Below, one piece after another: positions 4,473 through 8,744 of a DNA stretch of 64,000 nt. The first letter of the stretch is position 1, and every line of letters starts with the position of its first letter. The stretch is from Thioalkalivibrio sp. XN279 (GTDB lineage Bacteria > Pseudomonadota > Gammaproteobacteria > Steroidobacterales > XN24): assembly GCF_011089885.1 (NCBI RefSeq), contig NZ_JAANBD010000007.1, positions 1 to 64,000 on the forward strand, read 5' to 3'. The notes beneath the pieces are model-generated. The model was not told the origin of the DNA and ran no database searches. It saw nothing but the letters and a program-made list of their open reading frames with translations. Position numbers and translations under genes: made by a program.

Positions 4473-5141
4473 ATGATCGGCCGAATCCTGACCCTGATGC
4501 TGCTGGTGTGTCTCGCCAGTACCGCCCTGGCCGAGACGCGCTACGTGTCGGACCGCCTCGAGATTACGCTGCGCACGGGCACCTCCACCCAGCACTCCAT
4601 CGTCCGCATGCTGCCCAGCGGCACGCGCCTGGAAGTGCTGGAACGCGACAGCGCCAGCGGCTATGCGCGCGTGCGCACCCCGGACGGCACGGAGGGCTGG
4701 GTGCTGGCCCGGTACCTCATGGACCAGCCGGCCGCGCGCGACCGGCTCGCGGCCGCCACGGAAGGCGCTTCCAGTCTCGAGCTGAGGGTCACTGACCTGG
4801 CAGCGCAGGTCGAAGCCTTGAGCGGCGAGCGGGACGCGCTGCAGGCGCAACGCGACGGCCTCGAGAGCGAGCTCGCTGAAGTGCGCTCGGAGCTGGAGCG
4901 CATCCGGCGTGTTTCCGCCTCGGCCGTCGAACTGGATAACGCCAACCGCGAACTGCGCACGCGCGTCGCGGCGGCGGAACAGGACGGCACCTTGCTGCGC
5001 GCCGAGATCGCCGAGCTCAAGCGCAATACCCAGCGCGACTGGTTCGTGGCCGGGGCGGGCGTGCTTCTGCTCGGCCTGGTGCTCGGCATCGTGCTGCCGC
5101 GGATTCGCTGGCGGCGCCGCTCGGGCTGGGGCGACCTCTAG
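4473..5141 (+). CDS. YgiM-like SH3-domain membrane protein (TIGR04211 type)
   Basis: A 222-residue protein with a signal peptide (LTLMLLVCLASTALAET), a bacterial SH3 domain (residues about 22-88, with LRTGTSTQHSIVRMLPSGT and GTEGWVLARYL), a long coiled coil (about 95-190) and one C-terminal transmembrane helix (VAGAGVLLLGLVLGIVLP) with an Arg-rich cytoplasmic end. This domain order matches YgiM. The SH3 and coiled coil would lie in the periplasm, anchored to the inner membrane. The ATG at 4473 is preferred because it starts the signal peptide; a longer in-frame extension is not conserved-looking. Function in the family is poorly defined. Confidence 0.85.
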   Translation: MIGRILTLMLLVCLASTALAETRYVSDRLEITLRTGTSTQHSIVRMLPSGTRLEVLERDSASGYARVRTPDGTEGWVLARYLMDQPAARDRLAAATEGASSLELRVTDLAAQVEALSGERDALQAQRDGLESELAEVRSELERIRRVSASAVELDNANRELRTRVAAAEQDGTLLRAEIAELKRNTQRDWFVAGAGVLLLGLVLGIVLPRIRWRRRSGWGDL

Positions 5142-5208
5142 ACGCCTCACCGCCCAGGGCCGGCGATTCAGCCACGGTCCGCGCCGGGCGCCTGTCATGC
5201 GCGCCGTA

Positions 5209-5266
5209 CCCACGTCACGCGTCCCTCTCGGTTAATGAGATGCCCTCGAGTGACGCGTGACGTGGG
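5209..5266. repeat. Hairpin repeat copy 1: 15-bp stem, conserved 28-nt loop
   Basis: Perfect 15-bp inverted repeat: left arm 5209-5223 (CCCACGTCACGCGTC), right arm 5252-5266, enclosing a 28-nt loop at 5224-5251 that contains CGGTTAATGAGATGCC. The loop reappears without a mismatch, as its reverse complement, at 5384-5411 inside another hairpin. Aligned outward from the loop, the two stems keep 8 of 13 pairs and change the other 5 by compensating double substitutions, with no mismatched pair. This covariation means the paired structure itself is conserved. Confidence 0.85.
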
Positions 5267-5370
5267 CCCGACGCGGGGGGTTGCACTACTCGAGACAGGC
5301 GCCGTCCAGCCCGCCCGAGCCGCGACGCGGTGAGGGAAGGCTGACCATTCCTGCAACGTAGCGCGAGCGG

Positions 5371-5424
5371 CATGACACAGGCCACTCGAGGGCATCTCAT
5401 TAACCGAGAGGGGCCTGTGTCATG
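5371..5424. repeat. Hairpin repeat copy 2 (inverted): 13-bp stem, same 28-nt loop
   Basis: Perfect 13-bp inverted repeat: left arm 5371-5383 (CATGACACAGGCC), right arm 5412-5424 (GGCCTGTGTCATG), with loop 5384-5411 identical to the reverse complement of the loop in copy 1. The two copies face each other across 104 bp, recalling the inverted doublets of REP/BIME elements. Unlike REPs, however, the conserved part is the loop and not the stem. No recombinase or transposase gene is nearby. Confidence 0.85.
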
Positions 5425-5480
5425 GCGCCGCGCGGTCACGCGGGGAGCACCGCCGCGCGGTCCCGCGGCCAAACGGTCGG

Positions 5481-7838
5481 TCAGCCGACGGCCTGCCCGG
5501 CGAGGAACATCCAGGTCTCGACCACCGTATCGGGATTGAGCGAGATGCTCTCGATGCCCTCTTCCAACAGCCACTGCGCGAAGTCGGCGTGGTCCGACGG
5601 GCCCTGGCCGCAGATGCCGATGTACTTGCCCTGCTTGCGGCAGGCGGAGATCGCCATGTGCAGCAGCGCCTTCACGGCGCCGTCGCGCTCGTCGAACAGG
5701 TCGGCGATGATGCTCGAGTCGCGGTCCAGGCCGAGCGTCAGCTGGGTCATGTCGTTGGAACCGATCGACATGCCGTCGAAATACTCCAGGAACTCTTCCG
5801 CCAGCAGGGCGTTCGACGGGATCTCGCACATCATGATGAGCTTGAGGCCGTGCTTGCCGCGCTCGAGGCCGTTGGCGGCGAGCAGTTCGACCACTTTCTT
5901 CGCCTCCGCCACGGTGCGCACGAAGGGCACCATGACCTGCACGTTCTCCAGGCCCATCTCCTCGCGCACCCGCCTGAGCGCGCGGCATTCCAGCTCGAAG
6001 CACGGCCGGAAGCTCTCGGCGACGTAGCGTGATGCGCCGCGGAAGCCCAGCATCGGGTTTTCCTCGTGGGGTTCGTACTCGCGGCCGCCGATGAGGTTGG
6101 CGTACTCGTTGGACTTGAAGTCGGACAGGCGCACGATCACCGGGTGCGGCGCAAAGGCGGCGCCGATGGTGCTGATGCCCTCGGCCAGCTTCTCGACGAA
6201 GAACTCCACCGGGTCGTCGTAGCCCGCCATCTGCTGCGAGATAGTGTGCTTGAGGTCGTCGGACAGCGAGTCGAACTCGAGCAGGGCGCGCGGATGCACG
6301 CCGATCATGCGGTTGATGATGAACTCGAGGCGCGCCAGGCCGACCCCGCGGTGCGGGATGCCGGCGAAGTCGAAGGCACGGTCGGGGTTGCCGACGTTCA
6401 TCATGATCTTGACCGGGATGTCGGGCATGCTGTCCAGCTCGATGGTCTGCTCCTCGTAATCGAGGCGGCCGTCGAAGATGAAACCGGTGTCACCCTCGGC
6501 GCAGGATACGGTGACGGGCTTGCCGTCCTGGACCTTGTCTGTGGCGTCGCCGCAGCCGACCACGGCCGGGATGCCGAGCTCGCGCGCGATGATGGCGGCA
6601 TGGCAGGTACGCCCGCCGCGGTTGGTGACGATGGCCGCGGCGCGCTTCATCACCGGTTCCCAGTCGGGATCGGTCATGTCGGCCACGAGCACGTCGCCGG
6701 GCTGCACCCGGTTCATTTCTTTCACGTCGCTGATGATGCGCGCCGTGCCTGCACCGATGCGCTGGCCGATGCTGCGGCCCGTGGCGATCACCGTGGAGCG
6801 GTCTTTCAGCTTGAAGCGCAGGATGGAGCGCCCCTGGCGGCTCTGCACGGTCTCGGGCCGCGCCTGCAGGATGTAGAGCTTGCCGTCGCCGCCGTCCTTG
6901 CCCCATTCGATGTCCATCGGCGCGCCGTAGTGCTTTTCGATCGCCACGGCGTGGCGCGCGAGGGTCTCGACGTCCGCCTCGTCGAGGCAGAAGCGGCCGC
7001 GGTCCGCGGTCGGCACATCGATGGTGCGGGTGCCGTGGCCGTCGTCGCCATGGACCATCTTGATGGCCTTGCTGCCCAGGGTCTTGCGCAGCAGGGCGCG
7101 CTTGCCCGCCGCCAGAGCGGGCTTGTAGACGTAGAACTCGTCGGGGTTGACGGCACCCTGCACGACCATCTCGCCGAGCCCCCAGGACGCGGTGATGAAC
7201 ACCACGTCGCGGAAGCCGGACTCGGTGTCGAGCGTGAACATCACGCCGCTGGCGCCGGTGTCGCTGCGCACCATGTGCTGGATGCCGGCAGACAGGGCCA
7301 CCTGGGAATGGTCGAAGCCGTGGTGCACGCGGTAGGCGATGGCGCGGTCGTTGAACAGCGAGGCGAACACGTCATGGATGCGCTCGATCACCTGGGCGAT
7401 GCCGCGCACGTTGAGGTAGGTCTCCTGCTGCCCGGCGAAGCTGGCTTCCGGCAGGTCTTCGGCGGTCGCGGAGGAGCGGACGGCGACGGCGATGTCACGC
7501 CCGCCCGCCATCTCGTCCCAGGCCTTGCGAATCTCTTCGTTCAGCCGCGGCTGCAGCGGCGTCTCCTTGATCCACTGGCGTATGGCAGCGCCGGTCTCGA
7601 CCAGCTTGTCGACGTCGTCCACGTCGAGGTCCTGGAGGACTTCGCGGATCCTGTCGGCGAGGCCCTCCTGCGCCATGAAGTCGCGGTAGGCGGCGGCGGT
7701 CGTGGCGAAGCCGTCAGGCACCGTCACGCCCAGGCCTTCGAGGTTGGCGAGCATCTCGCCCAGAGACGCGTTCTTGCCGCCGACGCGCTCGACGTCGCCC
7801 ATGCCGAGTTCGTCCAGCTTCAGGATGTACTGTTCCAC
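5481..7838 (-). CDS. ppsA: Phosphoenolpyruvate synthase
   Basis: A 785-residue enzyme close to the usual 790. It begins with the ATP-grasp domain ([22 protein letters not shown]), has the central phosphohistidine swivel domain with [21 protein letters not shown], and a C-terminal PEP/pyruvate TIM barrel (signatures FGSNDMTQL-like [13 protein letters not shown] and [10 protein letters not shown] near the end). It converts pyruvate and ATP to PEP, AMP and phosphate for gluconeogenesis. The GTG start at 7838 is chosen because AAGGGGG lies just upstream; an ATG farther upstream would add about 45 residues unlike the family and overlap ppsR. It is divergent from its regulator ppsR. Confidence 0.96.
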
Positions 7839-7853
7839 CGTGGCCCCCTTGAG

Positions 7854-7871
7854 TTTCCCTTCCCCGGGAAA
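7854..7871. promoter_or_regulatory. Small hairpin in the ppsA-ppsR divergent promoter region
   Basis: Inverted repeat TTTCCC (7854-7859) and GGGAAA (7866-7871) around TTCCCC, within the 69-bp gap between the ppsA and ppsR starts. It overlaps the ppsA leader and could be an operator or RNA structure. No known regulator consensus is recognised, so function is open. Confidence 0.3.
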
Positions 7872-7907
7872 GGACAATGCGCACTGCCCCGTCGAACGGA
7901 TCAGCAC

Positions 7908-8744
7908 ATGAATCATCGCACTGTTTTCTTCGTCTCGGACCAGACCGGCGTCACATCCGAGACCCTTGGCCACAGCCTGCTGACGCAGTTCGACGGGCTC
8001 AAATTTCGCGGCGTGACTGTGCCATTTATCAACACCCGTGACAAGGCGAAAGAATGCGTACGACGCATCAACCTGACGGCCGAGGTCGAAGGCGCCAGGC
8101 CGATCGTCTTCGCCACCATGGTGCAGGACGAGTTACGCGCAATTATCGAGGAAAGTCAGGGACTTGTGCTTGACTTCTTCGGTGCTTTCATAGGTCCGAT
8201 GGAGCGCGAGCTGGGCCGCGCGTCGAGTCACGCCACCGGCAAGGCCCACGGCGTCGCGGACCAGCGTTCCTACACCCGGCGCATCGACGCCATGAACTAT
8301 GCCCTCGAGCACGACGACGGCTCCACCACGCGGGACTACAGCAAGGCCGACATCATCCTGGTCGGCGTGTCGCGCTCCGGCAAGACGCCGACCTGCCTGT
8401 ACATGGCGTTGCGCTACGGGGTGTATGCAGCGAATTACCCGCTCACGGAGGAAGAGTTCGAGCAATGCAAGCTGCCGCCGCCCCTGGTGCGTCACAAGGA
8501 CCGGCTGTTCGGCCTCACCATCAAGCCACAGCGGCTACAGCAGATCCGGCACGAGCGCAGGCCCGAGAGCAAGTACGCCTCGGCCCGGCAGGTGAGCTTC
8601 GAACTGCGTTCGGCCGAGGCCCTGTTTACGCGCTACGGCATCGATCACATCGACACCACGGAAAGCTCGGTCGAGGAGATCGCCAGCGCCGTGCTCGACC
8701 GCACCGGGCTGCTGAACCGGCTGCAGGAAGGCGGTGCCGGCTAG
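7908..8744 (+). CDS. ppsR: PEP synthase regulatory protein (kinase/pyrophosphorylase)
   Basis: A 278-residue DUF299 family protein. It opens with [20 protein letters not shown] and carries the P-loop [15 protein letters not shown] near the middle. The family controls PpsA by ADP-dependent phosphorylation of the threonine next to the catalytic histidine and by Pi-dependent dephosphorylation; the target GGRTCH motif is intact in the neighbouring ppsA. The ATG at 7908 fits the conserved N-terminus. Its TAG and the stop of the convergent pgm gene lie in one CTAG tetranucleotide (8741-8744). Confidence 0.95.

Follow-up and report, generated by a model that had tools for sequence, protein, structure and literature searches.

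Integron attC sites are hairpins of one DNA strand that are read by their structure, with the stem sequence left free, and in this they are like the hairpins described below as we read them; skipping-rope RNA (RF02924) shares with these the form of a long hairpin with a conserved terminal loop. The Rfam model of the latter includes a pseudoknot (PMC7779021). The GTAG REPs adjoin gene 3′ ends, where they occur in dimers between convergent or unidirectional genes, and have stems mostly of 6–9 bp (range to 13) and loops mostly of 2–3 nt (PMC3733652). TnpA-REP recognises a single folded strand of DNA by way of its mismatches or of bases in the loop (PMC8266576). The CGTC REPs are likewise found in dimers at gene ends, with short stems and 4–5-nt loops, and no dedicated transposase is known for them (PMC3733652). 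We analysed a 64,000-nt stretch of the genome of Thioalkalivibrio sp. XN279 (the window), in which an earlier note had pointed out two hairpins with identical 28-nt loops in opposite orientation, and compared it with the genomes of two sister species (G001 and G002; the own genome is G000). F strand denotes the reverse complement of the strand on which that note had given the loop.

Two facing hairpins with one loop and different stems

The two hairpins lie between the convergent genes listed in Table 1. Sequence reading and the positions of a 26-nt loop core, CTCTCGGTTAATGAGATGCCCTCGAG, found at 5225-5250 (+) and 5385-5410 (-), agreed with the reported identity and orientation of the loops; one more base on each side of this core gives the 28-nt loop. 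The exact core had three matches in the own genome, the third mismatch-free copy being on contig C25, and in two further copies a single base is inserted, accompanied in one of the two by a substitution. The loop is thus not restricted to the window pair, the case that the earlier note had named as refuting, and these further copies, exact or altered, have flanks that are complementary to each other and different from copy to copy. The 28-nt loop itself contains three more pairs (CTC/GAG) behind one mismatch: at hairpin 1 the apical mismatch consists of C5224 and T5251, which read A.G on F, and the CTC/GAG pairs and the loop proper follow.

When the arms of the two hairpins were aligned outward from the loop, 5 of the 13 shared pairs differed (columns 2, 4, 8, 9 and 11), and the differences in the 3′ arms mirrored those in the 5′ arms exactly, so that every changed pair was compensated, as had been reported. 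Compared with shuffled sequence, hairpin 1, whose pairing can be extended to about 5200-5275, folded with z values of −6.4 and −8.0 on the two strands and hairpin 2 with −6.8 and −5.9; for both hairpins 0 of 200 shuffles were as good on either strand.

Table 1. Features of the window doublet and loop types of the family (positions in the window).
Feature	Position	Strand	Basis or sequence
Left neighbour, TIGR04211-type SH3 domain protein	4473..5141	(+)	stops 67 nt short of hairpin 1
Interval between the two stop codons, containing the doublet, 339 nt	5142..5480	.	comparison with sister species G001 and G002
Hairpin 1, core stem and loop	5209..5266	F strand (-)	fold; R1/R2/R3 matches; 16 net pairs
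28-nt common loop of hairpin 1	5224..5251	(-)	sequence reading, exact-match search
Doublet spacer, 100 nt	5267..5366	.	homology search against other doublet spacers
Hairpin 2, facing hairpin 1	5371..5424	F strand (+)	fold; R3 match 5372-5423 (+); hairpin scan 5367-5428
28-nt common loop of hairpin 2	5384..5411	(+)	sequence reading, exact-match search
Right neighbour, phosphoenolpyruvate synthase (ppsA), convergent	5481..7973	(-)	gene name checked
Loop type A		F strand	GAGGGCATCTCATTAACCGA
Loop type B		F strand	GCAGGCATCTGAGCCAA
Loop type C		F strand	GAGCGGCATAAGAATTCCAAGCGA and near forms
Loop type D		F strand	close to GAGCGAGATAAAGATTTCCGAGCGA
Loop type of G269		F strand	GAGCGCATCTCTTCTAAGTGA

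At E 1e-3 the window spacer was homologous to none of the other doublet spacers; among 20 doublets, spacer homology was seen in two pairs. Short repeats surround the window hairpins. The foot and outer arm of hairpin 2, CCGCGCGGTC (5428-5437), is repeated 25 nt outward at 5453-5462, and copies in L038, L045 and, in G002, L115 have similar arm repeats next to them. Hairpin 1 is enclosed by GGCGCCTGTC and its reverse complement (5187-5196 and 5294-5303), perhaps the remains of an older hairpin.

A dispersed family with covarying stems and several loop types

Three covariance models (R1, R2 and R3) were built in succession. Among six early copies, five from the own genome and one from G001, 10 of 18 pairs were changed on both sides and 0 on one side only, with 95% of the cells paired. 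R2 gave 26 rows at E <= 1 in the own genome, corresponding to 25 distinct places. A stem-and-loop scan of 298,630 bases of chosen loci returned 69 hairpins, 58 of which passed a loop-score threshold of 12 (33 in G000, 15 in G001, 7 in G002 and 3 in the relative G269). Two loci from the other searches, L076 and L150, were judged by eye to be false. The 33 scanned copies, six places from the large scans and one further pair bring the own genome to at least 41 copies and, with copies in both sister species, bear out the proposed dispersed structured family. In an unbiased 400-kb sample of the own genome R3 found 4 copies in two facing pairs, to which R2 added none; scaled up, this gives the rough figure of ~30 copies per genome.

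R3 was built on 42 of the 58 copies, 14 type-B and 2 odd copies being left out; the alignment register was fixed by cutting arms of equal length outward from the loop, and the MAFFT alignments A1, A4 and A6 were left out for a reversed row or misplaced arms. Across these 42 aligned copies (41 distinct), all 18 pairs were changed on both sides, in 240 of 738 cells, and the covariation score was reached by 0 of 500 shuffles. Sliding the 3′ arm lowered the paired cells from 94% to 32–51%. The covariation, together with folding that beats shuffled sequence, upholds the view that pairing is under selection with a constrained loop. Loops were identical in 44 of the 861 copy pairs, with a mean arm identity of just 59%.

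The constraint on the loop does not amount to the invariance claimed for it: several loop types with a common core exist across the family (Table 1) and coexist in one genome. Types A, C, D and that of G269 have GA at the start and end, and the two bases inside these GAs pair and covary as GC/GC, GG/CC, AC/GT and GT/AC (pairs 19-42 and 20-41). AGCGA stands at one or both ends of many F loops, and AGCGA repeats form a DNA tetrahelix, the AGCGA-quadruplex (PMC5442326); a quadruplex reading was not adopted, loop types A and B being without AGCGA.

On the F strand the order is a GCA foot, an outer stem, often a small internal loop, a middle stem, the apical pairs, the loop and a 3′ foot. GCA adjoined the stem directly in 29/58 hairpins and lay within 14 nt in 42/58. 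The 3′ foot is GGNCAGG-like; a loose GNCC test on the complement, weak in GC-rich DNA, was passed by 50/58. Mismatches recur at two places. One is apical, at two or three pairs' distance from the loop, with A.G in 35/58 and G.G in 5/58; the other is the small internal loop, an A.G or G.G no nearer than the tenth pair (32/58). Five of the 58 had no mismatch whatever, including the copy after the tryptophan dioxygenase gene, which is also without feet.

The F strand is the folded form

Counted on the strand used in the earlier note, the stems of the 58 hairpins contain 1265 Watson-Crick pairs, 63 C.T, 50 A.C, 21 C.C, 3 G.U and 1 T.C. On the F strand the same 1265 Watson-Crick pairs are accompanied by 63 A.G, 50 G.U, 21 G.G, 3 A.C and 1 G.A. 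With wobbles adjoining another mismatch set aside, G.U outnumbers A.C on F by 34 to 3 (sign test about 1e-7, inexact since the copies are related). The F strand also folds better than its complement in 54/58 hairpins with DNA parameters and in 50/58 with RNA parameters. From this mismatch asymmetry and the better folding we conclude that the F strand is the folded form under selection, opposite to the orientation originally given for the loop. The asymmetry fits RNA and single-stranded DNA equally, a point against the DNA reading proposed below. A C-to-T mutation bias between the strands might account for some of the wobble ratio, though it would leave the recurring A.G and G.G unexplained.

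These data also bear on a neutral origin, by which the hairpins would mostly be palindromes folding without function, their pairing kept by template switching that copies one arm onto the other. Double changes lacking a wobble intermediate outnumber those with one by 150 to 97 (cells of the 42 rows, not events), as such copying might leave them, and pieces of an arm are repeated beside some copies. Template switching would, however, also erase the A.G mismatches, which recur in 35/58, and it leaves the one-sided wobble ratio and the covarying 2-bp inner stem in the loop unexplained; we regard it as highly improbable.

Facing pairs just past stop codons

Positions relative to genes were counted for 66 elements (the 58 hairpins and 8 more from G000) with genes from a home-made codon-model gene caller. 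On the loop-consensus strand a gene end lay within 130 nt upstream of 53/66 elements (median 45 nt), compared with 7/66 on the other side, and one of the 13 misses (contig C24) sits after a small reading frame passed over by the caller. Neighbouring hairpins up to 450 nt apart faced each other in 19 of 19 cases. The expected arrangement of facing pairs near gene ends was thus found; widening the distance to 700 nt added one '-+' and one '++' pair, which we count against a mobile element. The names of nine neighbouring genes were checked: ppsA, the SH3 protein, rho, membrane pyrophosphatase (hppA), tryptophan dioxygenase (kynA), parC (partial in its locus and scoring below the cut-off), a dnaE2-type polymerase, gspF and lpxH.

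Eleven of the 14 doublets identified in the own genome were read as lying between convergent genes (the exceptions are C25:28049, C29:176734 and C28:403351), a preference when set against the 44 convergent among 366 background gene pairs, which also include 276 tandem and 46 divergent ones. Binding sites for a nucleoid-associated or topology protein, such as BIMEs have been proposed to be, would be arranged in this way if they absorbed supercoils or blocked replication/transcription conflicts between convergent genes. A protein binding the duplex would nevertheless neither create a wobble signature on one strand nor leave the stem sequence free, and such a role appears improbable.

Probable gain, conservation and spread

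Seventeen gene ends beside elements were traced in the two sister species, and for 15 sites some 650 nt were compared. In the window the two stop codons flanking the doublet are 339 nt apart, as against 18 nt in G001 and 19 nt in G002, so that the doublet is most simply read as a gain in this genome. By eye, no family hairpin was present in G001 at 6/15 sites (ppsA, lpxH, kynA, L038a, hppA and parC) or in G002 at 12/15 (all but rho, L038a and L043). At some of these sites the neighbouring gene differs, and hence not all of them are clean empty sites. Precise insertion ends or a target duplication could not be read at the compared sites because the flanks had drifted, which also counts against mobility. 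Elements at one site may differ between species by compensated changes (L041b). Unlike most sites, rho has its copy in each of the three species, with almost the same sequence (L088:1506-1555, L096:1724-1773 and L099:1717-1766); its conservation looks more like that of a functional site and is a further point against a mobile element. On the 3′ side of hppA both sisters (L102 and L125) have a GC-rich hairpin followed by T's, and the own genome has a type-B family hairpin (L040:3225-3311).

The last two sites bear on the possibility that the family acts as structured RNA, with F-strand transcripts folding and the loop binding a protein that sets or protects transcript ends. Such selection would give the one-strand tolerance of G.U and suits the location just past stop codons; it also accords with the conserved rho copy and, in the one case of hppA, with the exchange of a hairpin and T's for a family hairpin. 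The mRNA of the adjacent gene, however, carries the complement of F, the unselected strand. The transcripts would have to come from antisense transcription of the adjacent gene or from read-through of convergent genes that meets the far hairpin in F orientation, and single hairpins between tandem genes would require an antisense transcript. No T-run follows the hairpin: TTTT within 14 nt was seen in 0/58 on the gene's strand and in 1/58 on F, and an intrinsic terminator was rejected. With Rfam 15 nothing in the window reached the gathering score, and relaxed matches in 5150-5480 and 16 loci were all below gathering scores, RF02924 being absent among them; no covariance model of any Rfam family, RF02924 included, matched at its gathering score. 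On balance an RNA element is a serious contender, although an unlikely one.

In a sample of the order, 12/396 genomes matched R3 at E <= 0.01, or about 11 once G109, whose match looks false on inspection of the sequence, is removed: three of this genus, four of family f7, one of f15 and three of f11. The four other sampled genomes of the own family had no match. In a sample of the class 1/369 genomes matched R3, the own genome only. Copy numbers from both scans are lower bounds, the best 14-15 candidates per genome having been scored. Matches outside the genus retain the architecture, and facing pairs occur also in G269 and G305. A scan of genome contigs with an A/B-type loop pattern, from which own-genome records were possibly absent, gave 23 stretches. 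In two of them, both from Thioalkalivibrio sp. XN8, the flanks pair at 15 and 16 of 20 positions; the remaining 21 pair at 3-10 of 20 and were taken as chance. Two loop patterns had 0 matches in viral contigs.

Other repeats adjoin some members. A second very stable hairpin, with below-threshold matches to microRNA models in Rfam, adjoins a family member in G077 (L157:1367-1457), and in G002, downstream of the match in L115, ~32-bp tandem repeats (CTTCGGCACCGCAGGGGCGTCTGCCCGGGTTC) stand ahead of a family doublet.

No transposase or recombinase with the same ends, which the earlier note had suggested looking for, was found among Y1_Tnp genes and the loci around them in relatives. PF01797 (Y1_Tnp) had no match in G000, a result that weighs against mobility, and was over the cut-off twice in G001, twice in G002 and three times in G269. 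The loci around these seven genes (up to about 1.5 kb on each side) contained no family hairpin by R2 or R3, which also weighs against mobility, and hairpin scans there showed other repeats or none. Y1 transposase genes lie near other palindromes or long repeats, unrelated to the hairpin family, in L127 and L135 (G001) and in L130 (G004).

Discussion

The hairpin family fails some tests that define the known REP classes, yet resembles REPs in place and geometry. With GTAG REP/RAYT systems (REPtrons, BIMEs and REPINs) it shares extragenic location at gene 3′ ends, inverted dimers, an imperfect palindrome with conserved mismatches and a one-strand character (PMC3733652, PMC8266576), and the GCA(G) of its F foot is similar to the degenerate GYAG that some REP families have. 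As to the strand-specific cleavage of folded single-stranded DNA that belongs to these systems, the analysis covered the one-strand signature of the stems, which agrees with it. Net stem scores of 10-27 and loops of 15-27 nt, however, set it apart from the short stems and small loops of GTAG REPs, and REPs conserve stem and tag, whereas here the loop and the places of the mismatches are kept. A strict GTAG was found at the F 5′ foot in only 3/58, with no linked RAYT. The CGTC REPs are alike in their dimers, gene-end location and want of a known dedicated transposase, and differ in their short stems and loops and in the CGTC tag, present here in 1/58. The rarity of the tags, which we also count against a mobile element, and the genome without Y1_Tnp rule out a GTAG or CGTC REP in the strict sense, and an attC site was rejected too, both attC boxes (GTTRRRY and RYYYAAC) being present in 0/58. 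The comparison with REP/BIME elements made in the earlier note, with the roles of stem and loop exchanged, is apt. Its claim that the family is undescribed agrees with the RNA-family collections and the literature searched, the latter covering few subscription papers and giving no description of it; the repeat family, probably mobile, stands, while "system", as a word for its function, is too strong.

We consider the hairpins to be copies of a non-autonomous, REP/BIME-like mobile palindrome that would be read as one folded single DNA strand through its loop and mismatches, with a probability of about 0.5. This reading is based on the covariation, the one-strand signature, the identical loops with diverged stems, the apparent gain at the window site, the facing pairs, the position at gene ends and the REP precedent; mobility as the cause, DNA rather than RNA as the form selected and the nature of the protein are what we infer from them. 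The unit read would be the F strand folded on itself: its stem is long and free in sequence, with A.G or G.G mismatches that recur at certain positions, and its loop, in most types bounded by GA on both sides, holds the covarying 2-bp inner stem. The element would be recognised by loop and mismatches, and moved largely as facing doublets, by a protein that works on folded single-stranded DNA as the Y1 HUH enzymes TnpA-REP and TnpA-IS200/IS605 do. Copies would persist where they are least harmful, just past stop codons and for the most part in convergent intergenic spaces; there they may also serve as transcript-end roadblocks.

A bolder version, which we hold to be doubtful, makes the family a mobile element of a new, structure-read class that occurs in several families of a single order. 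The protein recognising it would be something other than the known REP transposases; on one DNA strand it would read nothing but the fold, with its stem geometry, recurring A.G and GA-closed loop, and leave the stem sequence free.

The family reverses the rule of known REPs, in which a short stem and a tag are kept: here the stem is what drifts, while the loop and the places of the mismatches stay, and both a very strong covariation and a clear one-strand signature go with this. The G.U to A.C ratio offers a simple test for which strand of a dispersed palindrome is selected. If the element acts as RNA, it would be a 3′-end element missing from Rfam; if it is mobile, its enzyme could be sought by comparing the few carrier genera.
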